Translations under genes and position numbers: made by a program
Assembly (NCBI GenBank): GCA_011191975.1
Contig: DUFA01000030.1
Location: forward strand, 1-46,504
DNA from: Dehalococcoidia bacterium
GTDB taxonomy: Bacteria > Chloroflexota > Dehalococcoidia > Dehalococcoidales > UBA2162
Length of the DNA stretch: 46,504 bases
Direction: 5' to 3'
Shown here: positions 7,139-34,688 of the stretch, in pieces
Layout of the letters: every line of letters begins with the position of its first letter
Numbering within the stretch: position 1 is the stretch's first letter
Notes under the pieces: model-generated
What the model was told of the DNA's origin: nothing
The model's database searches: none
Seen by the model: the letters and a program-made list of their open reading frames with translations, nothing else

Positions 7139-7561
7139 CTATAAAAGAGAGTACAGACTGGATAAACAGGTTACACTAAGTCAGTGTCCTATGTATTAGT
7201 CTGACAATATCAGGACATAGATGTAATGTATAAATACCAATAAGCTTCAGCATAGTGGACCATGTTGGTAAATAGAAACTCAGATGAGAGTTAGTAGTCA
7301 AACAACTACATTTTTACCTCAATGTAATTTTCTTGGTTTTTATTCTACCACTCGTATAGTAGCATGATTCCGTTTAACATCACCATTGAGTAACCTTATT
7401 TCTTAATAATCATAAAATAAATTGACTCCAGAAAGGTATAGACCGATTTATCCTGAATAATCATCCGAAAGATGGTTGTGCATGGCATTGAGTGATGGTA
7501 CTTTACTTATAACGCGTGGCATAATTGCTGTGATTTCTTAGTCATGCTTGGAGGTACGAAC

Positions 7562-9352: not shown

Positions 9353-9378
9353 ACCAGAGTAGAACACAAAGATATATA

Positions 9379-9412
9379 CAAGGGAATCCCTTAGATGGGA
9401 TTCCCTTGTTAT
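9379..9412 (+). terminator. Intrinsic terminator (perhaps bidirectional)
   Basis: CAAGGGAATCCC (9379-9390) and GGGATTCCCTTG (9397-9408) make a 12-bp perfect stem with a 6-nt loop, followed by TTAT. It lies 27 bp after the propeller gene and 72 bp past the convergent SDR stop at 9480, so it could serve both. Confidence 0.8.
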
Positions 9413-9479
9413 CTATAGGCTGTTGAGCATATTTTCCTTGTTAAAAATCAGCCTGTTTTCAATATCATTCTAGACATTA

Positions 9480-10665: not shown

Positions 10666-12471
10666 ATGAAAAAGATACTATGGTTGGTGATAAGTTTTCT
10701 GATGATAATTACACTCATCATGGCATCCTGTGGTGGTGGAGAAGAAGAAACTGGAGATGAGGAAGAAGTTGAAGAGGGAGAGAAGATCACGGTAACACTA
10801 ACCAAAAGAGATGGAATCCCCATGACAAGAACGGTTGAAAAACCGATATATGGCGGAACAACAATAACCGCTTTATCAGCCGACTATAACCAATGGGATC
10901 CGTACCATACTCAGACCATTCAGGTAGGCCACATGCAGTTAACCAGTAATGAAATGATAGGGGGAGACTGGACGTTAGGTCCCCAGGGTACCGGTGACAC
11001 GGACTGGGCATTCGGCTGGCTTGGTGATATAAAAATATGTGCACCCGAACTATGTGATTGGGAACTACCCGATGACACAACCATTCTCTGGCACCTGAAA
11101 AAGGGGGTAAAATTCCAGAACAAGGAACCGGCCAATGGTCGCGAGATGACCGCTGATGACATTGTCTTCAACATTAATTATCAATTCAACAACGAAGGAT
11201 GCTGGCAGACTATGGAATATCCTGAGGGACATCCACTGCGACCTACATCCTGGACAACACTCGACAGGTATACCGTTGAAGTCAAGTTTCTCTCGAAGGA
11301 CGCCCAGAGCCTGATGTTACCCGAGATCGGCGATAATGTCTACGTCAGTCCACCTGAAGTATGGACCTCCGGCGGGGACATGAATGACTGGTCAAAAGCT
11401 ATCGGGTCAGGACCATGGATACTGACCGACTATGTTGTTAGCAGTGCAATAACCTATACAAAGAATCCTGACTACTTTGAGACCGATCCGATTTATGCCA
11501 GCGCCGGTGAGAATTACCAGTGGCCTTATCTCGATACCTTTAAGTTTTTAGTAATTCCTGACACTTCTACCCGGATAGCGGCTCTGCGAACCGCTGAACT
11601 TGACTTTTTATCAGGGATTACTCACGACGATGCCACCTTACTGAAGAGAGATGTGCCTGACCTTCAATGGAAACAGGGATTTGTGATGTCTCCAAATATT
11701 GCCGCCGGTAAGATAACCCAACCACCTTACGATGACATAAGGGTCAGACGGGCATTGAACATGGCTATCAACAAGCAGGAAATGGTGGATGAGTACTACA
11801 ACGGTGAAGCTGCTCTGATTGGTTATCCCTTCCCTCCCGGTGATTCATGGGTTAAAGTATATACCCCGTTGGAAGAGCAGCCATCAGAGGTACAGGAAAT
11901 ATTCACCTATAATCCGGAAAAGGCAAAGCAGTTGCTGGCTGATGCCGGCTATCCAGACGGCTTTAAAGTAAAAATTACCTGTACAGCTGCAACATCCGAT
12001 GAACTATCACTTGTAAAGGAATACTGGGCTGATGTCGGTGTCGAATTGGAGATGGAGGTGCTGGAAGGCAGTGCCTGGTTTGGTATCTGGATGTCTCATG
12101 GATATGAAGATATGATTTATGCCCCTGGGCTGGGGTGCTGGGCAGGCGTTGAACAGGATATGATGACCAGAGCAGGCTTTTTTGCCAACATCTCTGAAAT
12201 AAATGACCCGCGTACTCAGGAGTTCAAGGCTCAACTTGCCAGGTACATCCTTGATGATCCCGATAAAATGCTGGCAGCCAAGAAAGAATACGCTATATGG
12301 GAGCTTCAACAAGCCTGGGGAGTATTCATGCCATCAGCACATGAATACAAAGCATGGTATCCATGGTTGCGGAACTACTACGGCATCAACTGGACCGGCG
12401 GAGCTGGAAGCTGGGACTGGACGAAGGCCATCTGGATAAACCAGAAAATGAAAACGTCGATGGGTCACTAA
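10666..12471 (+). CDS. ABC transporter substrate-binding lipoprotein (SBP_bac_5, oligopeptide type)
   Basis: 601 residues. A lipoprotein signal peptide ends in the lipobox IMASC with Cys22, followed by a Gly/Glu-rich linker. The family 5 extracellular binding domain is recognisable from KKGVKFQNKEPANGREMTADDIVFN, the ILTDYVVSSAITYTKNPDY segment and DDIRVRRALNMAINKQEMVD. These proteins capture oligopeptides, nickel complexes or other small solutes for an ABC importer. No permease or ATPase gene follows, so it is an orphan or works with components elsewhere. A strong terminator closes the unit. Confidence 0.88.
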   Translation: MKKILWLVISFLMIITLIMASCGGGEEETGDEEEVEEGEKITVTLTKRDGIPMTRTVEKPIYGGTTITALSADYNQWDPYHTQTIQVGHMQLTSNEMIGGDWTLGPQGTGDTDWAFGWLGDIKICAPELCDWELPDDTTILWHLKKGVKFQNKEPANGREMTADDIVFNINYQFNNEGCWQTMEYPEGHPLRPTSWTTLDRYTVEVKFLSKDAQSLMLPEIGDNVYVSPPEVWTSGGDMNDWSKAIGSGPWILTDYVVSSAITYTKNPDYFETDPIYASAGENYQWPYLDTFKFLVIPDTSTRIAALRTAELDFLSGITHDDATLLKRDVPDLQWKQGFVMSPNIAAGKITQPPYDDIRVRRALNMAINKQEMVDEYYNGEAALIGYPFPPGDSWVKVYTPLEEQPSEVQEIFTYNPEKAKQLLADAGYPDGFKVKITCTAATSDELSLVKEYWADVGVELEMEVLEGSAWFGIWMSHGYEDMIYAPGLGCWAGVEQDMMTRAGFFANISEINDPRTQEFKAQLARYILDDPDKMLAAKKEYAIWELQQAWGVFMPSAHEYKAWYPWLRNYYGINWTGGAGSWDWTKAIWINQKMKTSMGH

Positions 12472-12493
12472 CTACGATTTATGGTTAAAGAAA

Positions 12494-12530
12494 AAAAGAG
12501 AGGAGAGTGAATTCGCTCTCCTCTCTTTTA
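12494..12530 (+). terminator. Strong intrinsic terminator
   Basis: AAAAGAGAGGAGAG (12494-12507) pairs with CTCTCCTCTCTTTT (12516-12529), 14 bp, 23 nt after the lipoprotein stop. The stem has A- and T-rich flanks, so it may work for both strands. Confidence 0.85.
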
Positions 12531-12573
12531 GTAACCTCTACTTTTATACATGAAATATGTATACTTGGTGGCG

Positions 12574-13968
12574 TTATGCTATCAGAAGGTCAACCAGTTT
12601 CTGAGTACTATCGAGGTTCTCCAGGTCTCCCACCATTTTCAGAATCTTTTCTCCGTTCTCAACTGACACGGTATTGGAAAACTCTATATTCCCGCGGAAT
12701 TTGGCCAGCAGGTCTTCTTTGGAAACCGGCCTGCGTGGATCTCCCCTGGCGATCTCGGTAAAAACGTCATATTCCTGTCCGTCTTTCATTATTACCTTCA
12801 CCCTACCGCTTTCCATGCCTCCCTGCGTCAGTTCCACCATCGTGATCTTGCTGGTAATGAAATCACTGATTGCAGTGTCCCGTATCGCTTCCTCGGTATA
12901 ATGCTCCGGCTTCGAACTTCCCCTCACCAGGACGTTCGCCACACTGTACTGGATACTGAATCCGGCGCTGGCATGCGGAGAATTCTTTATCCTGAAAGGC
13001 GCTCCGATGATATCGTGCATGGCTCCGGGCGACACATACATGATGACCTTGTCTATATCATCACCGGATACCCCGTGCTCATTCACAATATCTACCGCGC
13101 AGTCCACCGCTGAGTGGTTCATGCGGCAGTTGGGGTAGGGCTTGAACGTCCCGTCGCTGTAATACTGCTTTCCAAGGTTTTTTATCAGGAGTTCGGGGTC
13201 TTTGATACCCTCGGTAAATATGTCATAGTAACCGCCCTGTGCCAGCAGGGCATCGTCGATCCCCGACCAGCCTGCCTTCGCCAGGTTCACGCTGAATATG
13301 GCGTCCCTAGCCGCGTTACCCTGAGAGAGTTTAAACCCGACAGCAGTATCGCTGATCTGTTTCTGGATGCCTCCGAGGTGGTCTACTACCAGGCCGAATG
13401 CATCGCTGAACTGCTCGTGGTTCAATCCCATCAGCCTTCCGGTGATGGCAGTCGCCCCGAAGGAGTTCGCCTGCCCGACATGGTCGAGACCCCGGCGTGT
13501 CCCGCCGGCTTCTCCCGCCAGTAGCACCCGTGTAGCCATGTCGTCTCCGACCAGCATCGCCGTCAGCAGTTCTTTACCGCTGACTTTCTGCATATCGCCT
13601 ATGGTCATCGCCGTCATCGTGGTGGTGCCGGAAATATGACCCGGTATCGATTTTCCTTCGACCAGAGGACTTACCGGCTCGTAATCGAAAGAACGGGCCA
13701 TGACGCAGTTCATCAGCGCCGCCATCGGGGCAGGAACTTTGCCGCCATGGACGAATATCCTCGCTTCCGGTTTACCTCCCCAGTCGCGGATAAGCTCCAG
13801 GAGAGCTGGATTGCCACAATCGTTCGCCCCGCATATCATGCACCCGATTACATCGAACAGCCGGTTCTTGGCGTGGTCGACCGAAGCAGAAGGGATATAC
13901 TCCAACTTCGTATTCAGTATATTATCGATAAGTTTATCCAGGTATAAGCCTTTACCGGAATTACTCAT
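12574..13968 (-). CDS. MmgE/PrpD family protein (copy 1)
   Basis: 464 residues, the normal length for the MmgE/PrpD family, which includes 2-methylcitrate dehydratase and related hydratases and decarboxylases. Recognisable regions are an N-terminal all-helical part (DHAKNRLFDVIGCMICGAN), the GQANSFGATAITGRLMGLNHEQF segment and KPYPNCRMNHSAVD. A GGAGG ribosome site sits just before the ATG at 13968. It is the second gene of a tandem pair, 16 bp after copy 1's neighbour at 13985-15373. The precise substrate cannot be assigned because family members act on varied organic acids. Confidence 0.88.
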   Translation of the reverse strand: MSNSGKGLYLDKLIDNILNTKLEYIPSASVDHAKNRLFDVIGCMICGANDCGNPALLELIRDWGGKPEARIFVHGGKVPAPMAALMNCVMARSFDYEPVSPLVEGKSIPGHISGTTTMTAMTIGDMQKVSGKELLTAMLVGDDMATRVLLAGEAGGTRRGLDHVGQANSFGATAITGRLMGLNHEQFSDAFGLVVDHLGGIQKQISDTAVGFKLSQGNAARDAIFSVNLAKAGWSGIDDALLAQGGYYDIFTEGIKDPELLIKNLGKQYYSDGTFKPYPNCRMNHSAVDCAVDIVNEHGVSGDDIDKVIMYVSPGAMHDIIGAPFRIKNSPHASAGFSIQYSVANVLVRGSSKPEHYTEEAIRDTAISDFITSKITMVELTQGGMESGRVKVIMKDGQEYDVFTEIARGDPRRPVSKEDLLAKFRGNIEFSNTVSVENGEKILKMVGDLENLDSTQKLVDLLIA

Positions 13969-21868: not shown

Positions 21869-23266
21869 CTAGCTTCTGAGGAACTTGTCCATATCAGCAG
21901 CAGCCCGTTTGCCGGCGCCCATGGCGCTGATAACAGTTGCCGCGCCGGTGACAATGTCACCACCGGCCCAGACCCTGTCCTTGACCGTCTTGCCGGTCTC
22001 TTCGTCAGCTATTACCGTGCCGCGGTTGGTCGTGTCCAATCCTTTGGTGGTGCTGGCAATGAGAGGATTGGGTGAGGTACCGAGGGCAACCACCGCCACA
22101 TCCACGTCCAGAGTGAATTCACTCCCCTCTTTGACTATCGGGCGACGCCGCCCGCTGTCATCCGGTTCACCGAGTTCCATCTGGTAGCACTCGACCGAGA
22201 CGAGTTGATTCTTGTCATTGCCGATAAACTGTTTCGGATTGGTCAACAGCCTGAAGTCAATACCTTCTTCCATGGCGTTTTCCACTTCTTCACGCCGCGC
22301 CGGCATCTCTTCTTCCGATCTCCTATATATTATGTAAACTTTCTCGGAGCCTAGCCGTAGAGCGCACCTGGCTGAGTCCATCGCCACGTTACCGCCGCCT
22401 ATGACGGCTACCCTCCTGCCCAGTTTAACAGGTGTGTCGTATTCGGGGAACATGTAGGCTTTCATCAGGTTGACACGAGTGAGGTACTCATTAGCGGAAT
22501 AAATACCGTTCAGGTTCTCGCCAGGCACGTTCATGAACATAGGCAACCCGGCGCCGGTGCCGAGGAACACGGCATCGTAGCCATTCTCCAATAATTCGTC
22601 AATCGTTGAGATCCTGCCGACGACCGAGTCGAGTTTAAATTCCACTCCCAACGACTTTACAAAATCGACTTCCTTCTGGACTATTTCCTTAGGCAATCTG
22701 AATTCAGGAATACCGTACATCAGCACCCCGCCGGCGACGTGAAGCGCTTCAAACATGGTAACGCTGTGCCCGAACCTTGCCAGGTCAGCCGCAGCCGTCA
22801 ACCCGGCCGGTCCGGTCCCAACCACTGCCACTTTTTTACCTGTCGACGGCGGTAGTTCAGGTTTTTTTTCCTCGTTGGTCATGTTAAGGAGTTCCCAGTC
22901 GGCAACATACCGTTCGAGTCTTCCGATGGCTATCGGTGCACCCATCCTATTCAGCGTGCAGACAGACTCGCATTGCGTTTCCTGCGGGCATACCCTTCCG
23001 CAAACACCCGGCAGCGCGTTCTTACTCTTGAGTATTCTGACTGATTCTTTCATATCGCCTTCACGTAGCGCCAGGATAAAGTCGGGAATGTCCACGTTGA
23101 CCGGGCACCCCTCGACGCAATTTCGTTTCTTGCACTGTATACAGCGGTCGGCCTCGGCCTTTGCCTGTTCGGGACTGTAACCAAGCGCTACCTCGCGGTA
23201 GTTCTTCGCCCTAACTTCCGGCTCCTGCCTCGGCATTTGCTCGCGGTTCAGATTAACTTTTGCCAT
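21869..23266 (-). CDS. nfnB: NfnB-like NADPH-dependent oxidoreductase, large subunit (GltD family)
   Basis: 465 residues, the normal length for NfnB. An N-terminal Cys-rich region (RCIQCKKRNCVEGCPVNVDI, then GVCGRVCPQETQCESVC) binds two [4Fe-4S] clusters. The FAD site is VVGTGPAGLTAAADLARFG. The NADP site is AVIGGGNVAMDSARCALRLG followed by YRRSEEEMP, with Arg residues suited to NADPH. It is the last gene of the five-gene operon, 12 bp after nfnA. NfnA plus NfnB form the electron-bifurcating NADH-dependent ferredoxin:NADP+ oxidoreductase. A GltD-like subunit of glutamate synthase is the alternative, but no GltB is present and the nfnA neighbour decides. Confidence 0.9.
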   Translation of the reverse strand: MAKVNLNREQMPRQEPEVRAKNYREVALGYSPEQAKAEADRCIQCKKRNCVEGCPVNVDIPDFILALREGDMKESVRILKSKNALPGVCGRVCPQETQCESVCTLNRMGAPIAIGRLERYVADWELLNMTNEEKKPELPPSTGKKVAVVGTGPAGLTAAADLARFGHSVTMFEALHVAGGVLMYGIPEFRLPKEIVQKEVDFVKSLGVEFKLDSVVGRISTIDELLENGYDAVFLGTGAGLPMFMNVPGENLNGIYSANEYLTRVNLMKAYMFPEYDTPVKLGRRVAVIGGGNVAMDSARCALRLGSEKVYIIYRRSEEEMPARREEVENAMEEGIDFRLLTNPKQFIGNDKNQLVSVECYQMELGEPDDSGRRRPIVKEGSEFTLDVDVAVVALGTSPNPLIASTTKGLDTTNRGTVIADEETGKTVKDRVWAGGDIVTGAATVISAMGAGKRAAADMDKFLRS

Positions 23267-23278
23267 GTGTGTATCCCG

Positions 23279-24118
23279 TTATACTTTCGTCCAGTTCGTG
23301 CATTCGAACATTTGCAATGATTCTATTTCTTCGGCCAGGTACTGTACCTGTCTCGCCACCAGCAGATCCCATTCCACTTCGTGCGCGTCGAATTCCGGCC
23401 CATCGACACAGGCAAACTTGGTTGTACCACCGACTTCAACGCGGCAGCAGCCGCACATCCCGGTCCCGTCTACCATTATCGGACTGAGATGAACGATCGT
23501 TTTTATCCCAAGATCCTTCGTGGCCTCGGCAACATTCCTCATCATGAAGGTGCAGCCTACGGCTATTACAAGATCAGGTTTTTCGTTACCTTTGATGTAT
23601 CTGTCTATTTTTTCAGAGATCCATTCCTGATAGGAATCGGAATCATCACCCGTGACTGTTACCAGTTCATCGCATGATCCCTCGAGTTTATCCTGCCAGT
23701 ACAGCAGTCTTTTACTCCTGCCTTCGATGATGGATATCACCTTGTTACCTGCTTCTTTCATCGCCCTGGCGATCGGTGTAATACCACCGATTCCATAGCA
23801 GCCACCGATACAAAGGACGGTACCAACTTTTTCGATCTCTGCAGGAACACCCAGAGGTCCGGTAAAGTTCTCGATATAGTCGCCTGTTTTCAACGACGCC
23901 ATCTTTCCGGTTGTGGTGCCAACCTCCATGAATATGACGGTGATGCTACCTTCCTCGGGATCAGCTTCGGCGATGGTCATTGGAATACGTTCGCCGTATT
24001 CGTCGACTCTTATGATAACGAACTGGCCTGGAAGCGCTTTTTTCGCAATTTCAGGCGCTTCGATCTTTACTACTTGAAGATTCGGTACCAGGTTTTCTTT
24101 TAATAGAATCTTAAACAA
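23279..24118 (-). CDS. nfnA: NfnA-like FAD/[2Fe-2S] subunit (ferredoxin-NADP reductase family)
   Basis: 279 residues matching NfnA / sulfide dehydrogenase beta / PyrK-type proteins. A beta-barrel FAD domain contains GERIPMTIAEADPEEGSITV. The NAD-binding region has CIGGCYGIGGITPIARAMKE. A C-terminal [2Fe-2S] motif reads DGTGMCGCCRVEVGG and FACVDGPEFD. The start is TTG at 24118, behind GGGGTGGA. In NfnAB this subunit binds NAD(H) and its FAD and [2Fe-2S] cluster form the exergonic branch; the bifurcating FAD is in NfnB. It sits 12 bp before nfnB and 20 bp after the FdhA/NuoG-like gene. Confidence 0.9.
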   Translation of the reverse strand: MFKILLKENLVPNLQVVKIEAPEIAKKALPGQFVIIRVDEYGERIPMTIAEADPEEGSITVIFMEVGTTTGKMASLKTGDYIENFTGPLGVPAEIEKVGTVLCIGGCYGIGGITPIARAMKEAGNKVISIIEGRSKRLLYWQDKLEGSCDELVTVTGDDSDSYQEWISEKIDRYIKGNEKPDLVIAVGCTFMMRNVAEATKDLGIKTIVHLSPIMVDGTGMCGCCRVEVGGTTKFACVDGPEFDAHEVEWDLLVARQVQYLAEEIESLQMFECTNWTKV

Positions 24119-24138: not shown

Positions 24139-26586
24139 CTATTTTTCCAGTTTTACGGGACAAATGCCGTACTCCCTCAAACCGGAAACTCTATCGGCGG
24201 CCGGATTTAATATTTCATAAGCAAAGTGAAGCGGTAAAGTTACCGTTCCGGGCGGCATCGTGTTCTTCACCTTTACTTTGACTGGTATACTTCCCCACTT
24301 CGATACGAGTTTCACTCCTTCGCCGTTCACTAGTTTCATTCCAGCAGCATCTTCTGGACTTATTACCACCTCAGGTTCGCCTTCGAGAAGGCTGAACTCT
24401 CCCAGACCGATATCCATGGCTGAAGCATCGAAATAGTACAGACTGGGTAAAGTTATCATCATTAACGGGTAATCTTTATTCGCCTTCACGACCGAAGCTT
24501 TATAATCGATATCGGCAGGTCTGGCAGGATTCACTCCGATCGTCGTTACCGTTTTCTTAATCTCGGAAGTAATACCTGATACACTACTGTAGTTGAATCC
24601 TTCACCACCCATTCGTTTACCGACCTGGGAGATTATCCACCAGTCCGGCTTCGATTCACCGCGAGGTTCCACAGCCTTGTTTACCTTCCTCGTTATGTGG
24701 TCGCCACTAGTGATGGTTCCCTGCTTTTCGGTAATCGCGGCAGCCGCAAGGACAACATCGGCATTCTGCGCCGTTGACGAAAGGAACATAGTCTGGACGG
24801 CCAGGAACTGCAGCTTATCGAGTTTACCTTTCAATCTGGGATCATCACCAATAACGTAAGCCGCTTTTATCTTGCCCTTTTCAATCGCGGTGATTATTTC
24901 ATCGAAAGACAGTCCCGGCTTTTCCACCGGCTGGTATCCAAGTTCGTAACCCGGCATTACACCCATATCGCAGGCGCCCTGTATGTTGTTCATTCCACTG
25001 ACCGGATTGATCCCAAGAGAAGGTTTCTTTACCTTACCGGCCTTCGCCGCCATATCATTCAAAGCAGATACCAATATGTCTGCTCCTGACTGCTGAAGTA
25101 TGCCTTCGCCGTAGAGGATGCCGGCTGATTGAGCCCTGGTATACAGTCCGGCTGCTTCCTCGATCTGTTCTGCCGGAACTCCCGTAATTCTGGCTGCCTT
25201 TGCCGGTTCAACAGCCTTCATGAGGCCGCCTATCAGTACCAGTTCCGTACCCGGTTTATACTGGAGCCATACATCGGCTGACTTGCATAATCCGTTGCGG
25301 TAAGGGCTGGCGACAACCAGCTTTCCACCGTTATCAACCTCTCGTTTTATCTCCACGGCGATTACCGGCTGGGACAATGTTGGATCTGTGCCTATGGTAA
25401 AGATACAACCGGTATTCGCGATCCCGGATATATAATCCTTCGTTTCACCCCTGCCCGGCCCGGGAACGCGTCCCAGCCTGGCAGCATGGTCTATATTATT
25501 GGTATCCAGAACCGTTCTTGCCAGTTTCTGGAGTAGGTAATTTTCTTCATTCGTTGTCTCAGAGCAATTGATAACCGCAATTTCCTCGCCTTTATAATTA
25601 CCAAGTTTTTTAGCAACTGCATCGAGTGCCTTGTCCCAGCTTTCCTGGACCAGTTCGTTGTTGCGTTTCATCAGCGGGACCTTCAGTCGTTTGGTGTGAT
25701 TTACTATCTCGGCAATGCCAAACCGACCTCTCACGCAGGACTGGCCTTTGTTGACACTTTCGGCAACCGGTATTAATCCGATTACTTTGCCTTCTTTTAC
25801 TTCAACCTCGAACTGGCAGCCAACACCGCAGTAAGGGCAGGTGGTAATGATGGTCTTGTCAGGCAGTCCTTCCCATTTACGTCGTCTATCGGCAAGAGCT
25901 CCGGTAGGACATATATCAACGCAGGCACCGCAGAAACGGCAGTCCGCTTCCTGTAATGTTTCACCGAAGGCGGTTCCAACCAAGGCTTGCCTGCTTCGCG
26001 AAGTGAAGGCAATTGCGCCTATTCCCCTTACCTCCTGGCATACCCTGACACAACGACCGCACAGGATACAAAGGTTGTAGTCCCGCTGCAGGAAAGGATC
26101 CCTTTTATCAGGCATCAGGTCCCTTGACTTGCTGGTGACCCTGATCTCAGTCATACCAACGTATTCGGAAGCTTCCTGGAGTTCGCACTGCCCTTTATTC
26201 GGGCAGAACTTGCATCCGGTGGTCATACCAGCTTTTCGCATCGAGTTCCGGTACGGATCACAATCGTTCCTCCGGTCGCAGGTCACACAGGAATGGGGAT
26301 GATTTGCCAGCATTAGTTCAAGGAATCCTCTTCTCAGTTCCTGGAGTTGCTCTGTGTTGGTATGGACAACCATGCCGTCTGTAGCCGGAGTAGTGCAGGA
26401 AGTGGGGAATCCCCTCATGTTCTCTATCTCGACAATACAGACGCGGCAACCACCATAAGGAGTCAGGTACTTGTGGTAGCATAATGTCGGTATATATACT
26501 CCCGCGGCTTCAGCGGCATTTAGTACCGTAACGCCGCTTTCCACGGTAACTTTTTTATCGTCTATTGTCAGTGTTATCTTACTCAT
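24139..26586 (-). CDS. FdhA/NuoG-like iron-sulfur molybdopterin-fold protein lacking the metal ligand
   Basis: 815 residues. In order: [2Fe-2S] ferredoxin domain (LCYHKYLTPYGGCRVC), His-Cys cluster (HPHSCVTCDRRNDC), two [4Fe-4S] motifs (CILCGRCVRVC and CRFCGACVDICP), the N-terminal catalytic-domain [4Fe-4S] (CPYCGVGC), then the molybdopterin oxidoreductase fold. At the position of the Mo/W-coordinating Sec/Cys it has Gly372 (HAARL-G-RVPGP), and the following His is replaced. It therefore probably carries electrons, as in NuoG, rather than oxidising formate. It is third in the five-gene operon, 13 bp after the NuoF fusion. The catalytic counterpart may be the divergent selenoprotein FdhA. Confidence 0.87.
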   Translation of the reverse strand: MSKITLTIDDKKVTVESGVTVLNAAEAAGVYIPTLCYHKYLTPYGGCRVCIVEIENMRGFPTSCTTPATDGMVVHTNTEQLQELRRGFLELMLANHPHSCVTCDRRNDCDPYRNSMRKAGMTTGCKFCPNKGQCELQEASEYVGMTEIRVTSKSRDLMPDKRDPFLQRDYNLCILCGRCVRVCQEVRGIGAIAFTSRSRQALVGTAFGETLQEADCRFCGACVDICPTGALADRRRKWEGLPDKTIITTCPYCGVGCQFEVEVKEGKVIGLIPVAESVNKGQSCVRGRFGIAEIVNHTKRLKVPLMKRNNELVQESWDKALDAVAKKLGNYKGEEIAVINCSETTNEENYLLQKLARTVLDTNNIDHAARLGRVPGPGRGETKDYISGIANTGCIFTIGTDPTLSQPVIAVEIKREVDNGGKLVVASPYRNGLCKSADVWLQYKPGTELVLIGGLMKAVEPAKAARITGVPAEQIEEAAGLYTRAQSAGILYGEGILQQSGADILVSALNDMAAKAGKVKKPSLGINPVSGMNNIQGACDMGVMPGYELGYQPVEKPGLSFDEIITAIEKGKIKAAYVIGDDPRLKGKLDKLQFLAVQTMFLSSTAQNADVVLAAAAITEKQGTITSGDHITRKVNKAVEPRGESKPDWWIISQVGKRMGGEGFNYSSVSGITSEIKKTVTTIGVNPARPADIDYKASVVKANKDYPLMMITLPSLYYFDASAMDIGLGEFSLLEGEPEVVISPEDAAGMKLVNGEGVKLVSKWGSIPVKVKVKNTMPPGTVTLPLHFAYEILNPAADRVSGLREYGICPVKLEK

Positions 26587-26599
26587 TCCGGGCTAACGC

Positions 26600-29500
26600 C
26601 TAACTTTCCTCCAAATCGCACTGCAGACATCGTTTTGTTTCGTCTTTCGCGCATTTCGCGTCGAATCCGAGTAACACTTTCGCATAACTCTTGATTCTTT
26701 CTTCAACAGACAGAAGTTTCAATTCAGGCCTGTATTTATCAGATTCGATCTTATCCGGGTCAAGTGGCGGCAGTTCGTCCTCGGGCGGTACCAGTTCCTC
26801 GTCGATGACGCCTGCACCTCCAAGGTACAGGTCCATCGAGACAGCCGCCTGCCTGCCGTCGGCAATTGCTTCGATTACTGATGCAGGTCCCCGGGTAACG
26901 TCACCACCAGCATAGATCCCCTCTATCGAGGTAGCCAGGGTATATTTATCGACCACGATTCTGCCACCGCGTACCGTTTCCACCCCGAACTTATCAGGTA
27001 TCACTGATTCCTGGCCGAGAGCTTTAATCACATTATCGAATTCAAGTGTATATTCACTTCCCTCGATCGGTTCCGGTCTGCGTCTTCCGCTGTCATCAAC
27101 CTTACCTAGCTGCATCCGTACCAGCGTAACCTTGAGTCCGCTGCCGGATTGTTCAACGCCGGTCGGGTTGGTCAGGAATTCTATCTTCACGCCCTCTTCA
27201 AGGGCTTCATCGATTTCTTCATCGCTTGCCGGCATCTCGTTGCGTGTCCGGCGGTAGACCACGGTTACATCCGCACCAAGACGCACGGCAGTACGGGCTG
27301 CATCCATGGCAACATTGCCGCCGCCGATGACCATTACCCGCTTGCCAACCTCTACTTTGTTTCCAAGGTTGATATCCCTGAGTACGTCCACGCCGTCCAC
27401 TACACCCGGCAGGTCTTCACCCGTTATGCCCATCGTGGTGCCTTTGTGAGCACCAACGCTGACGAATACGGCATCATATCCCTGTTTCTTCAGGTTATCT
27501 ATCGATTCAACGGGGCTGTTCGTGTTAATCGTTACCCCGATAGCTTCAATTTCTTTGATTTCCTTATCGAGCACTTCCGGCGGCAGACGGTAATCCGGAA
27601 TACCTACCCGCATCATACCTCCGGCAACCGGCAACGATTCGAATACAGTTACTTCGTGTCCTCGCCTTACCAGATAATAGGCGGCAGTAAGTCCGGCAGG
27701 TCCGGAACCGATAACGGCCGTTTTCTTGCCCGTGGATTCGGCTTTCTTGATATTCTTCTTCCAGGTGCCATCATCATTTTCTGCGGCGAACCTCTTCAAT
27801 TCTTTAATCGCTATCGCTTCATCAAGCTGTCCGCGGCGGCATTTGGATTCGCAGTAATGAACGCAGACATAACCGAGTGTCGCCGGGAACGGCACTTTCT
27901 CGCGGATGACCGCCGTCGCTTCTCCATATTTGCCGTCGACGATCGCCCTAATATACCTCGGAACATCGATTCCCGCAGGACAGGTATTCTGGCAGGGTGA
28001 CTTAACCAGTCCAGCACAAACACCGGCGCGACAGTAACCCAGTTTTATATGCTCTTCGTACTCTTCCCTGAAATACTTGATCGTGGTCAGTACCGGATTC
28101 GGCGACGTCTGCCCGAGAGCGCAAAGCGAACCTGATTTCATCAGGTTTGCCAACCACTCCATGTACTCGATGTCACCTTCTTTTCCTTCACCGTTGGTAA
28201 TACGCTCGAGTACGTTCAGCATTTCCGCACCACCTTCACGGCAGGGAAGGCATTTACCACATGACTCAGCCTGGGTGAATGAAATAAAGAACTTAGCCAG
28301 GTCGACCATGCAGGTATCTTCATCACCGACTATCATACCACCGGAACCGACTATCGAGCCGGCAGCCGCCAGCGATTCGTAATCTACCGGGATATCCATG
28401 AGGCTGGCTGGAAGACATCCTCCGGACGGACCTCCGGTCTGAACCGATTTGAACTGCTTATCGTCGACTATTCCGCCGCCGATTTCGTAAATAATATCGC
28501 CAAGCCTGATGCCCATCGGCACTTCGATCAAGCCTGTCCTTTTCACTTTGCCGGCAAGAGCAAAGGTTTTAGTGCCCTTGCTTTTCTCGGTACCAAAAGA
28601 CGCGTACCAGTCGGCACCTCGCTGCATAATAGCCGAGACATTACCCCAGGTCTCGACATTGTTTACATTCGTCGGTTTACCCCAGACACCAGACACCGCC
28701 GGGAACGGTGGCCTGGAACGAGGCATCCCTCTCTTGCCCTCGATAGAGGCAATGAGCGCCGTTTCTTCTCCGCAGACGAAAGCACCGGCGCCTTCCTTTA
28801 TCACTATATCAAGGTCAAATCCCGAGCCAAGTATATTCTTACCAAGCAGGTTATTTTCCCGCATCTGCTTCAAGGCTGTTTCCAGGCGTTCGATTGCCAG
28901 TGGGTATTCGGCACGACAATAAATATAAGCATAATTCGATCCAGTCGCGTAGGAGCCGATAAGCATACCTTCAAGAACGGCATGCGGATCGCCTTCGAGT
29001 AACGATCTGTCCATGAACGCTCCGGGATCACCTTCATCAGCATTACAGATAATATATTTTTCATTCCCTGACGCTTCCAGTAGTCTTTCCCACTTGAAAG
29101 AGGTTGATGCTCCGGCACCACCTCTACCGCGAAGACCGGACTTGCCGATCTCGGTAATTATCTCTTTTTGAGTCATTGTCAGGGCTCTAGTGAAACCGCT
29201 GTAGCCGTCATTGGCAATATATTGTTTGATATCCGTAGGATCGATATGGCCGCAGTTGCGGAGAGCAAGACGAACCTGTGGTTTAAATACCGGGAGTTCG
29301 AAGAGCTTCGGAATCCCGTCAATCTCTGTATCACCAATAGTTCCGAGAGCAAGGTCTGGCCGAGGATTGTCTTTTACAAGGTAGTCTTCGAGAAGTTCGG
29401 TGATCATCTCGGGTGTTACTCCCGAGTACGTGATTCGGGATCGACCGGGTTTGATGATATCTACCAGTGGTTCGGCATAGCAGAGACCGATACACCCTAC

Positions 29501-29680
29501 TTCCGTAATGATAGCCTCGATTCCAAGGCGTTTGAGCTCTTTTTCGATTGCGTCCAGAACGTCAAGTGCTCCGGCTGCCCTGCCGCAGGTAGCCATACCA
29601 ATGAGAATCCTGACTTTATCGCTTTTCTGCAAGGCTTCCCATTCGGTAACAGCCTGTGTTCTTATATCATTAAAAGACAT
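26600..29680 (-). CDS. NuoF-NfnB fusion: NADH-binding FMN subunit joined to a GltD-like flavoprotein
   Basis: 1026 residues. Residues about 1-110 form a thioredoxin-like [2Fe-2S] domain. About 120-540 is NuoF/HydB: GRGGAGASTSFKWE (FMN/NADH), ADEGDPGAFMDRSLLEGDP, and the [4Fe-4S] motif SCGKCLPCREG plus SLCALG. From about 555 a complete NfnB-like unit follows: Cys-rich CQNTCPAGIDVPRYI, FAD site IGSGPAGLTAAYYLVRRG, and NAD(P) site VIGGGNVAMDAARTAVRLG. It ends TKRCLQC, a Cys motif that lies at the N terminus in free NfnB. The protein could exchange electrons among NADH, a second pyridine nucleotide and the iron-sulfur chain of its partners. It starts 9 bp after nuoE. Confidence 0.9.
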   Translation of the reverse strand: MSFNDIRTQAVTEWEALQKSDKVRILIGMATCGRAAGALDVLDAIEKELKRLGIEAIITEVGCIGLCYAEPLVDIIKPGRSRITYSGVTPEMITELLEDYLVKDNPRPDLALGTIGDTEIDGIPKLFELPVFKPQVRLALRNCGHIDPTDIKQYIANDGYSGFTRALTMTQKEIITEIGKSGLRGRGGAGASTSFKWERLLEASGNEKYIICNADEGDPGAFMDRSLLEGDPHAVLEGMLIGSYATGSNYAYIYCRAEYPLAIERLETALKQMRENNLLGKNILGSGFDLDIVIKEGAGAFVCGEETALIASIEGKRGMPRSRPPFPAVSGVWGKPTNVNNVETWGNVSAIMQRGADWYASFGTEKSKGTKTFALAGKVKRTGLIEVPMGIRLGDIIYEIGGGIVDDKQFKSVQTGGPSGGCLPASLMDIPVDYESLAAAGSIVGSGGMIVGDEDTCMVDLAKFFISFTQAESCGKCLPCREGGAEMLNVLERITNGEGKEGDIEYMEWLANLMKSGSLCALGQTSPNPVLTTIKYFREEYEEHIKLGYCRAGVCAGLVKSPCQNTCPAGIDVPRYIRAIVDGKYGEATAVIREKVPFPATLGYVCVHYCESKCRRGQLDEAIAIKELKRFAAENDDGTWKKNIKKAESTGKKTAVIGSGPAGLTAAYYLVRRGHEVTVFESLPVAGGMMRVGIPDYRLPPEVLDKEIKEIEAIGVTINTNSPVESIDNLKKQGYDAVFVSVGAHKGTTMGITGEDLPGVVDGVDVLRDINLGNKVEVGKRVMVIGGGNVAMDAARTAVRLGADVTVVYRRTRNEMPASDEEIDEALEEGVKIEFLTNPTGVEQSGSGLKVTLVRMQLGKVDDSGRRRPEPIEGSEYTLEFDNVIKALGQESVIPDKFGVETVRGGRIVVDKYTLATSIEGIYAGGDVTRGPASVIEAIADGRQAAVSMDLYLGGAGVIDEELVPPEDELPPLDPDKIESDKYRPELKLLSVEERIKSYAKVLLGFDAKCAKDETKRCLQCDLEES

Positions 29681-29689
29681 GCTTGTACC

Positions 29690-30172
29690 TTAATAATATC
29701 GGGAGAGTATTTCTCTTGCCTTGGTCGGATTCATTCTGCCGTATACCATCTTATCGATTACCATCACGGGCGCCAGCGCACAGGACCCAAAACAGGCTAC
29801 TCTCTCAAGGCTGAACTTATAATCATCCGTGGTATCCTTTCCTTCGGGAAGATCGAGTTCTTTCCTGACAGTATTGAGAATCCGCTTGCCGCCCTGCACG
29901 TAACAGGCAGTCCCCTGGCAGCATTTGACGGTATGCTCTCCCTGCCGTTCAAATCGGAACTGGGCATAGAAAGTAGCAACCCCGTAGATCTCACTCTCTG
30001 ACAAGCACAAAATACGGGCTATCTCCGGGATTACTTCTCGTGGAAGGTAGCCGAATTCGTCCTGTACTTTCTGTAAAACGGGAATTAGTGCGCCCTTTTC
30101 CCCTTGGTAAGGAGTGACGATAGGTAATAAACGATTTTGGATATCATTTTCAGTAACAGTATTTAATGTCAT
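29690..30172 (-). CDS. nuoE: NuoE-like [2Fe-2S] thioredoxin-fold subunit
   Basis: 160 residues, normal for NuoE/HydC. The four [2Fe-2S] Cys are present as CCQGTACYVQG (first pair of the motif C-x4-C) and CFGSCALAP (C-x3-C). The N-terminal PVLQKVQDEFGYLPREVIPEIA is characteristic. It is the first gene of the operon nuoE / nuoF-nfnB / fdhA-nuoG-like / nfnA / nfnB and is expected to pair with the NuoF domain. The ATG at 30172 has AAGGTG upstream. Confidence 0.93.
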   Translation of the reverse strand: MTLNTVTENDIQNRLLPIVTPYQGEKGALIPVLQKVQDEFGYLPREVIPEIARILCLSESEIYGVATFYAQFRFERQGEHTVKCCQGTACYVQGGKRILNTVRKELDLPEGKDTTDDYKFSLERVACFGSCALAPVMVIDKMVYGRMNPTKAREILSRYY

Positions 30173-30182
30173 TTCACCTTCG

Positions 30183-30256
30183 AATATGTCAATAAAAAAG
30201 TATAGCGTTAAATATACGCTATAAGTATATTATCACATAACTTTTCACGAGGTCAA
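30183..30256 (-). promoter_or_regulatory. nuoE operon promoter with overlapping palindrome (operator or attenuator)
   Basis: On the minus strand TTGACC (30256-30251) and GATAAT (30234-30229) are separated by 16 bp. Just downstream is the perfect palindrome TATAGCGT-N7-ACGCTATA (30201-30223), followed on the minus strand by CTTTTTTATTG. The palindrome may be an operator, or a weak terminator hairpin in the leader. The rest of 30173-30542 contains no gene. Confidence 0.5.
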
Positions 30257-30542: not shown

Positions 30543-33500
30543 ATGACAACAACCAGGATTGTAGTAAATGATAAAGAAGTTCCCGCAAAAACTGATCAGA
30601 CCATACTGGAGGCATGCAAAGAGGCCGGGATATATATTCCCAGCCTTTGCCATTTCCAAGGCATCACCCCTCTGCCTGAAGTTATGCCGGATATGGCATG
30701 TCAGCTCTGTTTGGTCGAAATAGACGGTCAAGTGGTGTTGTCTTGTGACACACAGGTTTCCGAAGGCATGTCGGTAAATACTGATACACTTGAGATAAAG
30801 GAACTTCGTCGGGAAGCCCTCCAGCGCATCCTCGTCAGGCATCCGCATGAGTGCCTTATCTGCGACCGAAGGGAGCGCTGCGGACCTCTCGACATCTGTC
30901 TGCGTAACGTGGATATTTCGGAGCGATGTGTGCTTTGCTCCAAGAATGGCCGCTGTGAACTGCAGGATGCTGTCGATTACATTGGGATCGACAAAATGCC
31001 CGAATACCTTCCCCGGAATCTCCCTGTACGTGAAGATAACCCCTTCTTTATCCGTGACAACAATCTCTGCATAATGTGTGAACGATGCGTGAGGATTTGC
31101 GATAACGTAAGACATGTGAAAGCTATCGAACCGGCCTACCCCTGCCACCGGGCTTGTCCTGCCGGAATAGATATCCCTCGGTATATACGTCTTATTGCCA
31201 GAGGACGCCCAAGTGCGGCTCTTGCAGTCATCCGTGAAAAAGTACCATTCCCCGCTGCTTTGGGCAGAGTATGTGTACACCCCTGTGAAGAAGCCTGCCA
31301 GCGTGGACTCGAAATCGACAAACCGTTGAGTATCAGGATGCTGAAACGGTATGCGAGTGATAACGGTGATGATTCGTGGAAGAAATCGGTGGTCAAGCTG
31401 CCTTACACGGGAAAGAAAGTAGCTGTAATCGGTTCTGGACCAGCAGGACTTACTGCCGCTTATTACCTGGCCAAACTGGGACACGGAGTAACTGTATTTG
31501 AAGCCTTGCCGGAACCCGGAGGAATGATGAGGGTAGGGATACCGGCATACCGCCTGCCGAGAGATATCCTTTCCGTTGAAATTAAGGAAATCAAGAACGC
31601 CGGTGTCGAGATCAAGCTGAATACCAGAATTGAATCGGTAGAATCACTTCTGAAAGATGGATACGACGCTGTGTTCCTGGGTGTCGGTGCCCACCAGGGA
31701 ATGACACTTGGTGTCGAAGGAGAAAACCTGCCCGGTATTATCGATGCCGCCGAATACCTGAGGAAAGCTAACCTTAATGAAAACCCGGAAACGGGCAAAA
31801 GAGTCGGCGTCGTCGGTGGGGGCAATGTTGCCATTGATGCCGCCCGTATTTCACTCCGGCTTGGCGCCGAAAAAGTAACCATATTCTATCGTCGTACCCG
31901 TGCTGAAATGCCCGCCAATCCTGAAGAAGTGGAAGCAGCTATCGAAGAAGGAATAGAAATTCTCTACCTGTCAGCTCCGGCAAAAGTCACGGCTGATGGT
32001 AAAGTACTGAAACTCGACTGCCAGAGAATGGAACTTGGAGAACCGGATGAGAGTGGCCGGAGGAGACCGGTACCCATAGAGGGCAGTAACTTCATTTCCG
32101 AGCTTGATACTCTTATCGCCGCGATCGGTCAGCGCCCCCAGGTACCTGAAGGATTCGATGTCGAAACCGGGCGTGGGAATACGGTGACGGTAAATGGCAG
32201 TATGATGACCAGCCATGAAGGAGTATTCGCAGGCGGCGATTGTTCCCGCGGACCGGCAACGGTTATAGAGGCCATTGCCGACGCCAGGAAAGCGGCAGAG
32301 GCGATTGACCTTTATCTCGGTGGACAAGGTGATATCTCCGAATCGCTGGTTCAGCCGGAAGAAGCGGAAATACTGCCTGAAACAATCCTGCCTGAAGAAG
32401 TAGAGGCTGTTTTCACCTATTTGCCGGTTGAAGAGCGAATCAGGACCTTCGATGAAGTTGAGAACGGGATGACTCGCGAGGTAGCTGAAGCCGAAGCTCA
32501 GAGATGCCTGAAATGCTATGTTATTTCTCCACCGGGAGACAAAGTCCTCGAAGAAGCGGACTGCCAGTTCTGCGGTGCTTGCGTCGATGCTTGTCCCGTC
32601 GGAGCTCTCTCCGAAAGAATGTCATACCTTGAAAAAAAACCTGACAGGACGGTGACGACGATCTGCCCGTACTGCGGCATTGGCTGCCAGCTTAAGCTGG
32701 ATATAATAGACGAAAAGATAATCAGGGTTACTCCCGACCCCGATGGAATAGTCAATAAAGGCCAGGCCTGCGTGAAAGGTAAATTCGGACTTGACTTTGT
32801 AAATAATTCAGCACGGCTGACCACTCCTCTCATTCGTGTTGGAGAAAGAGGAGAGGGTAAGTTCAGGGAAGCAAGCTGGGATGAAGTCCTGGACATGGTG
32901 GCAGGAAAACTTAAGGAGATCAGGGATACAACCGGACCTGACAGCCTGGCATTCCTGTCTTCAGCGAAATGTACCAACGAGGATAATTACCTCTTGCAGA
33001 AACTGGCAAGGGCGGCGATCGGCACCAACAACGTCGACCACTGTGCCCGTCTCTGACATTCTCCCACCGTGGCCGGTCTGGCCACGAGTTTCGGCAGCGG
33101 AGCAATGACCAATTCGATTTCAGAAATAGAGAATGCAGAGTGCATTTTCATTATAGGTTCAAATACTTCGGAAAACCATCCGATTATTGCACTTGAAGTA
33201 ATGAAAGCCGCCCGTAACAAGGGTGGTAAAGTAATTGTAGCCGATCCCCGGAAAATAAGGATGGTAGACTTCGCCGATATCTGGCTGATGCAAAAACCCG
33301 GCACTGATGTCGCTCTTATCAACGGACTCCTTAACGTCATTATTTCGGAAAACCTGTACGATAAAGAATTCGTTGAGACGTGTACGATAGGTTTTGATGA
33401 TGTTAAAGAAGAAGTCAAAGGATACGATCCCGATAAGGTCAGCATTATTACGGGCATTCCTGCAGAAAAAATCCGGGAAGCTGCCCGTACCTATGCCCGG

Positions 33501-34688
33501 GCTAAAACCGCAACCATTCTATACTGCATGGGCATTACCCAGCATACATCCGGTACGAATAACGTGATGGCTCTCGCCAACCTGGCAATGGCGACCGGCA
33601 ATGTAGGCAAGGAAAGCACCGGGGTTAATCCGCTCAGAGGACAGAACAATGTTCAGGGCGCCTGTGATCTCGGGGCTCTCCCGAATGTATACACCGGCTA
33701 TCAACAGGTCGCCAGTGAAGAAGCCAGGGCTAAATTCGAAAAAGCCTGGGGGGCATCGCTTTCTCCCAACCCGGGCCTGACACTGGTTGAGATGATGAAC
33801 AGCATCTCGGATGGGAAAATTAGAAGCTTATACGTTATGGGAGAAGATCCTATAATCTCGGATCCCAACAGTACGCATGTGGAGGAAGCACTCAAGAAAC
33901 TTGATTTTCTGGTTGTCCAGGATATATTCATGACGAATACGGCGCAATATGCCGACGTGGTACTGCCCGGAGTCAGTTTCGCTGAGAAAGACGGTACATT
34001 CACCAATACCGAGCGAAGGGTACAACGAGTACGGAAAGCCATCGAACCCATAGGCGACAGTCGCCCGGAATGGATGGTAATCCCGGACATAGCCACCCGC
34101 CTGGGATACGAGATGAAATACAGTGGGCCCGAGGAAGTATTCGAAGAAATCCGGACATTGACCCCTACCTATGCCGGTATCAACTATACCAGGATTGAAA
34201 AAAACGGCCTGCAGTGGCCATGTCTTACTGAAGATGATGACGGAACACGATTCCTGCACCAGGGTCAGTTCTCATGCGGACTCGGCAGGTTTCAACGCAC
34301 TCCTTATAAAGAAGCTCCGGAACTCACCGATAAAGAGTATCCTATCATCCTATCCACAGGAAGAATTCTTTATCACTACCATGGCGGCAATATGACACGG
34401 CATTCGAAAGGACTTGATGAGATCAGGCCTGAAGCTGAAGTAGAGATAAATCCCGCCGATGCTGCCAGAATGGATGTGAAACAGGGAGACCTGGTAGAAC
34501 TGGAATCTCGACGCGGTAAGGTGCTAACGAAAGTTAAGATTACTGACAGGTCGCCTGAGGGTGTAGCATTCATGACCTTCCATTTCAAGGAAGCGCCCGT
34601 CAACCAGCTTACCCTCGATTCACTCGATCCGGTCGCCAAGATACCCGGTTACAAGGTAAGTTCCATACGTATAAAACCGAAAAAATAG
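30543..34688 (+). CDS. fdhA: Selenocysteine formate dehydrogenase alpha subunit with an inserted NfnB-like module (UGA = Sec838)
   Basis: 1381 residues when the UGA at 33054-33056 is read as Sec. Order: [2Fe-2S] ferredoxin domain (about 1-80); His-Cys cluster (HPHECLICDRRERC); first [4Fe-4S] C176/C179/C182/C186; a nested NfnB-like flavoprotein (about 195-670) with FAD site GSGPAGLTAAYYL at 297 and NAD(P) site GGGNVAIDAAR at 425; second [4Fe-4S] C674/C677/C680/C684; catalytic-domain [4Fe-4S] starting at C708; then the Mo/W-bisMGD domain. The active site reads DHCARL-U-HSPTVAGLA, matching E. coli FdhF and other formate dehydrogenases, including the His after Sec. Predicted reaction: formate/CO2 interconversion coupled to cofactors via the flavin module. 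It is divergent from the nuoE operon. Confidence 0.93.
33054..33086 (+). other. UGA-Sec codon and bacterial SECIS hairpin of fdhA
   Basis: UGA at 33054-33056. CGUGGCC (33068-33074) and GGCCACG (33080-33086) form a perfect 7-bp stem with the loop GGUCU (33075-33079), 19-23 nt after the UGA. The E. coli fdhF SECIS, the reference SelB-binding element, also presents GGUCU at its apex. Downstream reading continues in frame to 34688. Confidence 0.92.

Follow-up and report, generated by a model that had tools for sequence, protein, structure and literature searches.

The window analyzed here is a stretch of 46,504 nucleotides (nt) from a Dehalococcoidia bacterium (contig DUFA01000030.1, assembly GCA_011191975.1). 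The gene at issue (30543–34688, forward strand) translates as a single frame of 1381 amino acids (aa) once the TGA at codon 838 is read as selenocysteine (Sec), and its product is here referred to as the nested formate dehydrogenase (FDH). The order of its Pfam domains is Fer2_4 (residues 4–82), NADH-G_4Fe-4S_3, Fer4_20 (200–274), Pyr_redox_2 (291–581), Fer4 (671–689), Molybdop_Fe4S4 (702–755), Molybdopterin (758–1185) and Molydop_binding (1269–1372). The chain, encoded on the forward strand throughout, begins with a [2Fe-2S] domain (residues 1–82, Cys 36/53/56/68; 30543–30788; Fer2_4, 4.5e-14), a NuoG-type His-Cys region (residues 100–138; 30840–30956; NADH-G_4Fe-4S_3) and a first [4Fe-4S] motif, CIMCERCVRIC (residues 176–186, Cys 176/179/182/186; 31068–31100). 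There follows a GltD/NfnB-like module (residues 199–660; 31137–32522) for binding flavin adenine dinucleotide (FAD) and nicotinamide adenine dinucleotide or its phosphate (NAD(P)), delimited by Fer4_20 and Pyr_redox_2, a predicted model and Foldseek. This module includes the FAD-binding GSGPAG (residues 297–302; 31431–31448), the NAD(P)-binding GGGNVA (residues 425–430; 31815–31832) with YRRT behind it (449–452), and a C-terminal Cys pair, CLKC (655–658, RCLKC from 654; 32505–32516). Only then comes the second [4Fe-4S] motif, CQFCGACVDAC (residues 674–684, Cys 674/677/680/684; 32562–32594), followed by the Mo-proximal [4Fe-4S] domain (residues 702–755; 32646–32807; Molybdop_Fe4S4, 9.7e-18) and the molybdopterin catalytic domains (residues 758–1372; 32814–34658; Molybdopterin, 1.4e-90; Molydop_binding, 9.5e-31).

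The ferredoxin motifs of an intact Sec-containing FDH thus enclose a complete GltD/NfnB-like module. An earlier sequence-only reading of the window had placed both Cys motifs, the FAD site at 297 and the NAD(P) site at 425 where the translation has them, and the Pfam and NCBIfam searches agree in putting a GltD module between the ferredoxin motifs and FDH domains behind it. The layout it described stands with somewhat different spacings: 487 residues separate the motifs rather than about 475, versus 32 rather than about 45 in the minus-strand paralogue at 24139–26586.

The C-terminal half belongs to the FdhA/FdhF type, scoring 899.3 bits against the NCBIfam model TIGR01591 (Fdh-alpha) with a cut-off of 666.25. 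The TGA (33054–33056) lies in the motif ARLUHSPTVAGLA, and directly 3′ of it is a probable selenocysteine insertion sequence (SECIS) element (33051–33109), matched by Rfam SECIS_3 at 42.9 bits (E 1.5e-7), below the gathering score of 63. We read the codon as Sec because of this match, the surrounding motif, the presence of SelB and tRNA-Sec in the same genome (both over their cut-offs) and the occurrence of TGA (5) or Cys (9) at this site in relatives; against it, the SECIS stretch folded alone was not more stable than shuffled sequences (z −0.9). U838, H839, R1032 and K745, which we take to be the active-site residues, are all present, as are C708, C711, C715 and C743, presumably the ligands of the Mo-proximal cluster. 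The FDH half thus apparently carries its catalytic residues in place, and activity on formate is predicted.

The same architecture was found in other Chloroflexota. A one-piece match along the whole or nearly the whole protein was recovered from 5 of 400 genomes of the phylum, the window's own included, one of them spanning residues 131–1378 only. A first-junction model, built from five proteins and 126 positions long, identified 18 of 393 genomes of the class, again with the window's own (E ≤ 4.2e-66; next best 2.3e-38). In 17 of these 18 the Mo-proximal Cys motif lies behind the GltD module and no second ferredoxin motif lies ahead of it; the contig of the 18th is truncated. Furthermore, a GTDB scan with a pair of peptide patterns derived from five of the nested proteins returned 16 contigs with the first junction, all labelled Dehalococcoidia or Chloroflexi. 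The phylum, class and GTDB sets overlap, and several of the genomes are the same. Within the window's own family, none of 11 other genomes matched the whole junction, only two of the 11 combining a completeness of 90% or more with a contamination of 5% or less. Of two scans of viral contigs, the first gave no relative and the second one short relative (L125), which was not used.

Conservation was assessed in 18 nested proteins (the 16 GTDB loci, locus L038 and the window protein). The four [2Fe-2S] cysteines, motif 1, K268 and five Cys near the N-terminal end of the GltD module were kept in all 18, and the C-terminal CxxC, motif 2, the Mo-proximal Cys, K745 and R1032 in all 16 that reach that far. 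The active-site residue is Sec in six, Cys in nine and Arg in one (L038), so that Sec or Cys, together with the His and Arg, occurs in 15 of the 16 proteins reaching the active site. The NuoG-type His-Cys region was variable, being kept in five proteins (window protein P0001, L038, L064, L068 and L071) and lost in 13.

The inserted module has the complete fold of a GltD/NfnB-like protein, with Fer4_20, Pyr_redox_2 and two dinucleotide motifs. A predicted model of residues 150–716 (21 alignment rows) reached a predicted local distance difference test (pLDDT) score of at least 70 over most of it; a model of residues 1–1200 (15 rows) was of low confidence (mean pLDDT 53.3). The best Foldseek matches to the module were 9bov_A, 8oh5_C (StnC) and 9n5u_A, followed by NfnB (5jca_L); the leading matches, StnC, Nfn-ABC and NfnABC, are 42–48% identical to it. 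The nested protein scored 537.7 bits against the Fd-GltD model PRK12814, below its cut-off of 916. In the alignment with StnC, with offsets counted by hand, K268 (31344–31346) corresponds to K170, R337 to R239 (NfnB R201) and I211 to C114. The FAD-proximal cluster would accordingly have K268 where NfnB has a Glu ligand, and StnC likewise has Lys (K170) there and a flavin reported not to bifurcate (PMC10482914). These features point to a module of the StnC type. The second dinucleotide motif has the form GxGxxA, and the YRRT behind it was likened, by motif and through the 5jca alignment row, to the paired Arg that has been linked to the NADP 2′-phosphate in Thermococcus onnurineus Fdh3B and PfNfnI (PMC8965080).

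With a complete GltD module inside an intact Sec-FDH, the best reading is the one proposed from sequence alone, in which formate and NAD(P)H are directly coupled, and the protein is probably a single-chain NADP(H)-linked formate dehydrogenase or CO2 reductase. We infer its cofactors, electron path, NADP preference and direction of reaction as follows. A hydride would pass between NADP(H) and the FAD of the nested module, and single electrons would move from the FAD through the two [4Fe-4S] clusters of the module to the ferredoxin domain, which motifs 1 and 2 would rebuild around the insert. From the ferredoxin domain they would reach the Mo-proximal [4Fe-4S] cluster and finally the Mo/W-Sec site, which would interconvert CO2 and formate. 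Cys 201/205 and 655/658 are cluster ligands at the two ends of the module, so these ends should meet in space and the module could sit in a loop of the ferredoxin domain. In 2[4Fe-4S] ferredoxins each cluster draws ligands from both motifs; since both motifs also keep all their Cys, the two halves most likely reassemble, which would leave the flavin on a side branch. The earlier idea that the flavin lies on the formate path itself, flanked by an iron-sulfur cluster on either side, is not supported, all four Cys being retained in motif 1 (18 of 18) and motif 2 (16 of 16).

In addition to the score over the Fdh-alpha cut-off, the conserved catalytic and cluster residues and the completeness of the module, the surroundings of many nested genes favor this NADP(H)-linked reading. 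MetF-like and/or DUF3786 genes occur at 10 of the 18 loci (L067, L069, L070, L072–L077 and L079), with metF-like genes at nine of the ten, DUF3786 at all ten, the large subunit of a NiFe-type hydrogenase together with metV at five and AcsB-like genes at two. Family searches were run on the genes of L072 only, where the large and small hydrogenase subunits, the protease, DUF5981 (MetV) and DUF3786 were over their cut-offs and MetF was below its own; the other loci were labelled by similarity clustering, and the labels AcsB-, AcsC-, AcsE- and CooC-like come from sequence inspection only. At L072, L075, L076 and L077 the nested FDH stands in a row with a NiFeSe-type hydrogenase, a maturation protease, MetV, a MetF-like protein and DUF3786, and the rows of L072, L075 and L076 also have a CooC-like ATPase. 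In the window's own genome FTHFS and CdhC/AcsB, both over cut-off, are located elsewhere. Also in favor are the occurrence of a separate fdhA next to an Fd-GltD gene at L132 and L137 and the existence in Moorella of a characterized enzyme that performs this function in split form, with SfrB2 as its beta subunit.

Several observations weigh against this reading. The window copy has no adjoining metF or DUF3786 gene and instead faces genes for NuoE and a NuoF-GltD fusion. All 18 nested proteins keep the [2Fe-2S] site, yet a path from NADPH to formate has no need of it, and at L038 Arg replaces Sec/Cys. Moreover, the structure prediction of residues 150–716, well modelled in the GltD module, gave a pLDDT below 50 for both ferredoxin halves and so does not support their reassembly.

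The genes facing the nested FDH form a divergent minus-strand operon of nuoE, nuoF-gltD, an FdhA-like gene lacking Sec/Cys, nfnA and nfnB. They encode a NuoE-like subunit (29690–30172; 2Fe-2S_thioredx, 1.3e-47) and a NuoF-GltD fusion of 1026 aa (26600–29680; Complex1_51K, NADH_4Fe-4S, Fer4_20 and Pyr_redox_2), both possible partners of the nested protein; the paralogue with an ordinary Fd-FdhA arrangement by Pfam and sequence (24139–26586); an NfnA-like flavoprotein (23279–24118; PRK06222, 370.5 bits, cut-off 220); and an NfnB/GltA-like flavoprotein (21869–23266; TIGR01316, 589.4 bits, cut-off 471.75). The paralogue has neither Sec nor Cys at its Mo site (ARLGRV; ARLGRVPGPGRG); like the corresponding part of StnC, it is probably NuoG-like and no longer catalytic. 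In the NuoF-type subunit GltD forms the C-terminal end, with similar fusions at C54 and C40 elsewhere in the same genome and at L041 and L073 in relatives. The divergent intergenic region contains an inverted repeat at 30201–30223, terminator-like on both strands, with six promoter-like sites nearby (1.8 expected).

These neighbors bear on an alternative that we consider unlikely, in which the nested protein is a three-way hub: the [2Fe-2S] domain and His-Cys region would dock NuoE/NuoF in a HydBC-like manner, formate, NADPH and NADH would be coupled, and the flavin mononucleotide of the partner might bifurcate as in StnABC. The five keepers of the His-Cys region include the window protein, and none of them has metF/DUF3786 genes nearby, versus 10 of the 13 that lost it; all ten such loci fall in that group. 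The contigs differ in length, which makes absences of genes around the nested loci weak evidence. NuoE was found at three of the 18 loci (the window, L073 and L076), and nuoF-type genes occur at L073 and L076 as well as a NuoF-like gene in the L071 stretch. However, L073 and L076 have lost the His-Cys region, which weakens the association, and nuoE was not found at the keepers L064, L068 and L038, whose contigs are short. The divergent operon also has its own NuoG-like subunit (24139–26586) and may therefore represent a separate complex.

The sequence-only reading had raised possible bifurcation; that the inserted flavin itself bifurcates like that of NfnAB, one of the branches being the formate path, now appears improbable. 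The fold is shared with NfnB, R337 aligns with StnC R239 and NfnB R201, and at L064 nfnA and nfnB lie directly 3′ of the nested gene. However, the NfnB Glu is replaced by K268, as in StnC, and nfnA in the window and at L064 is in each case paired with its own nfnB. Judged from the alignment, bifurcation at the nested flavin is without support because the module is StnC-like and the StnC flavin reportedly does not bifurcate; bifurcation via a partner protein is conceivable. Very unlikely, too, is a catalytically dead, StnC-like scaffold with a purely structural FDH half: the FdhF half of StnC is described as dead (PMC10482914), and the paralogue and L038 have lost Sec/Cys, but Sec/Cys with His and Arg persists in nearly all nested proteins, and the SECIS match, SelB and tRNA-Sec are present. 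Despite a contamination of 8.3% in the metagenome-assembled genome and a 2096-nt identical tail at L071 that extends to the contig end, an assembly chimera is hardly credible and is excluded as the cause of the layout, because the first junction recurs in many independent genomes.

Phylogenies, made by quick searches with Shimodaira-Hasegawa-like approximate likelihood ratio (SH-aLRT) support only, suggest different histories for the two halves of the protein. In the GltD-domain tree the nested proteins group as a single clade (SH-aLRT 100), separate from the StnC-type chains. They also form one clade in the tree of N-terminal halves (99), with an ambiguous sister group. The input of that tree left out L080–L109 and other loci as duplicates or shorter copies (among them the nested L090, L092, L095 and L096, whose genomes had no other representative), seven rows classed as 'other', including the nested L064 and L070, were dropped, and L139, misclassed as nested by the motif rule, groups with the Fd-GltD rows. 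In contrast, monophyly of the nested catalytic tails was rejected by the approximately unbiased test (p 5.9e-6; 16 nested versus 29 split), in which identical rows (the two L071 copies) were left unconstrained and the long branches WIN_25857 and L003 were left out; a tree with both gave the same picture. The sister of the window protein's tail is the split L041 FdhA (support 100), and the identity along this tail (residues 640–779 closer to nested relatives, 760–980 closer to L041, the remainder mixed) fits a mosaic. At L071 the nested tail is identical over 2096 nt, from motif 2 onward, to the neighboring ordinary fdhA (7339–9434 and 11540–13635), possibly through recent exchange, or as an assembly artefact since the copy reaches the contig end. 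The catalytic tails seem to have been swapped with ordinary fdhA genes.

Two of the 13 stretches surrounding Fd-GltD genes have the split form: at L132 nuoE, nuoF, fdhA and Fd-GltD are lined up with another GltD/NfnB-type gene behind them, and L137 has the same row with nuoE outside the stretch. The sequence-only claim of a domain insertion rather than an end fusion holds for topology; as to origin, the N-terminal tree, with its ambiguous sister group, fits both an insertion and a merger of Fd-GltD with fdhA. A further, unlikely reading is that the ferredoxin domain acts as a socket, in which a conserved N-terminal unit of single origin ([2Fe-2S], motif 1 and GltD) receives FDH tails exchanged from motif 2 onward, and that in the keepers of the His-Cys region, the window protein included, the chain would form the core of a three-way complex that links formate, NADP(H) and NAD(H)-ferredoxin and includes the divergent NuoE/NuoF-GltD module.

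Searches of open PMC papers gave, among the titles, abstract openings and passages listed, no description of an FDH whose ferredoxin motifs flank a GltD module. The claim that no characterized enzyme has this layout holds to that extent, although a split form has been characterized (PMC13040438, PMC8965080) and GltD insertions in similar scaffolds are known (PMC10482914, PMC9888536, PMC12054007). The NADPH-dependent FDH of Moorella thermoacetica, with the beta subunit SfrB2 and SfrA2-FdhF3, is described as reducing CO2 with NADPH as part of the Wood-Ljungdahl pathway (PMC13040438). Like the nested protein it wires an FDH to a GltD-type module, but in separate subunits; here the FDH and the GltD-type module predicted to bind NADPH are one chain, with GltD inside the ferredoxin domain. 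SfrB is reported to be related to GltD and to the N-terminal part of StnC (PMC7483475). T. onnurineus Fdh3 likewise combines an FDH with an NADP-binding subunit modelled on NfnI and is reported to use NADP+ and NADPH; unlike the nested chain, it is a W- and Cys-containing enzyme of several separate subunits with Fe-S proteins between them (PMC8965080). For the FDH of deep-sea Chloroflexi the beta subunit is NuoF-like, and its description mentions no GltD part (PMC5736913).

Closer in architecture are StnC (Sporomusa ovata), C. saccharolyticus Nfn-ABC, T. sibiricus NfnABC and NsoC, in which GltD is likewise inserted into a NuoG/FdhF-like chain. In StnC-type chains, however, GltD lies right behind the [2Fe-2S] domain, within the His-Cys stretch (H-x3-C ahead), and the ferredoxin motifs come later. 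StnC and Nfn-ABC have the two motifs together; the nested protein has GltD between them and so lacks the arrangement of GltD before an undivided ferredoxin. Nor does it have the dead FdhF half of the StnC type, given Sec838-His839 here and Sec/Cys in 15 of 16 nested proteins. A chain of 1400 aa from Photobacterium sp. DA100 (L141, 5656–9858) combines [2Fe-2S], GltD, ferredoxin and an FDH with a Cys-His active site; unlike the nested protein it has the StnC-type insertion point, with the ferredoxin motifs together behind GltD. It was found by tblastn of plasmid records (among the best 10 of 630 and the best 60 of 236 matches), with 85% of the query covered, and falls into parts at a stricter limit. 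The gene behind it encodes, from sequence alone, a membrane protein resembling a formate/nitrite transporter with CBS repeats. Predicted single-chain GltD-FDHs thus occur beyond the Chloroflexota lineage, and an FDH with its two ferredoxin motifs parted by GltD was found only in Dehalococcoidia/Chloroflexi within the GTDB patterns, plasmid records and open PMC literature, the search beyond Chloroflexota being narrow (the two-pattern GTDB scan and plasmid records).

GltD-type insertions are also described in other enzymes. In type III HdrA, GltD is inserted in the ferredoxin domain as here, but in HdrA rather than an FDH (PMC12054007); in the nested protein an FDH lies behind the module, and no HdrA family appeared in Pfam or among the best 25 of 95 NCBIfam matches. 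The composite [FeFe] hydrogenase ACL20074 of Desulfitobacterium hafniense has an SfrB-like segment inside an HndD-like chain, a hydrogenase rather than an FDH; its homology to HndD reportedly breaks off within the first [4Fe-4S] site, about 110 aa into the chain, and resumes near residue 580 (PMC9888536).

The nested protein would thus unite NADPH binding and CO2 reduction at a Sec/Mo site in a single polypeptide. It occurs in several uncultured Dehalococcoidia beside genes of the Wood-Ljungdahl type, where it would point to NADPH as the likely source of electrons for the initial step of CO2 fixation. The FDH branch of StnC has been called a non-functional remnant (PMC10482914). With a GltD insertion point unlike that of StnC-type chains and an FDH branch that apparently still works, the nested proteins may make the modular origin of StnC-type complexes testable.

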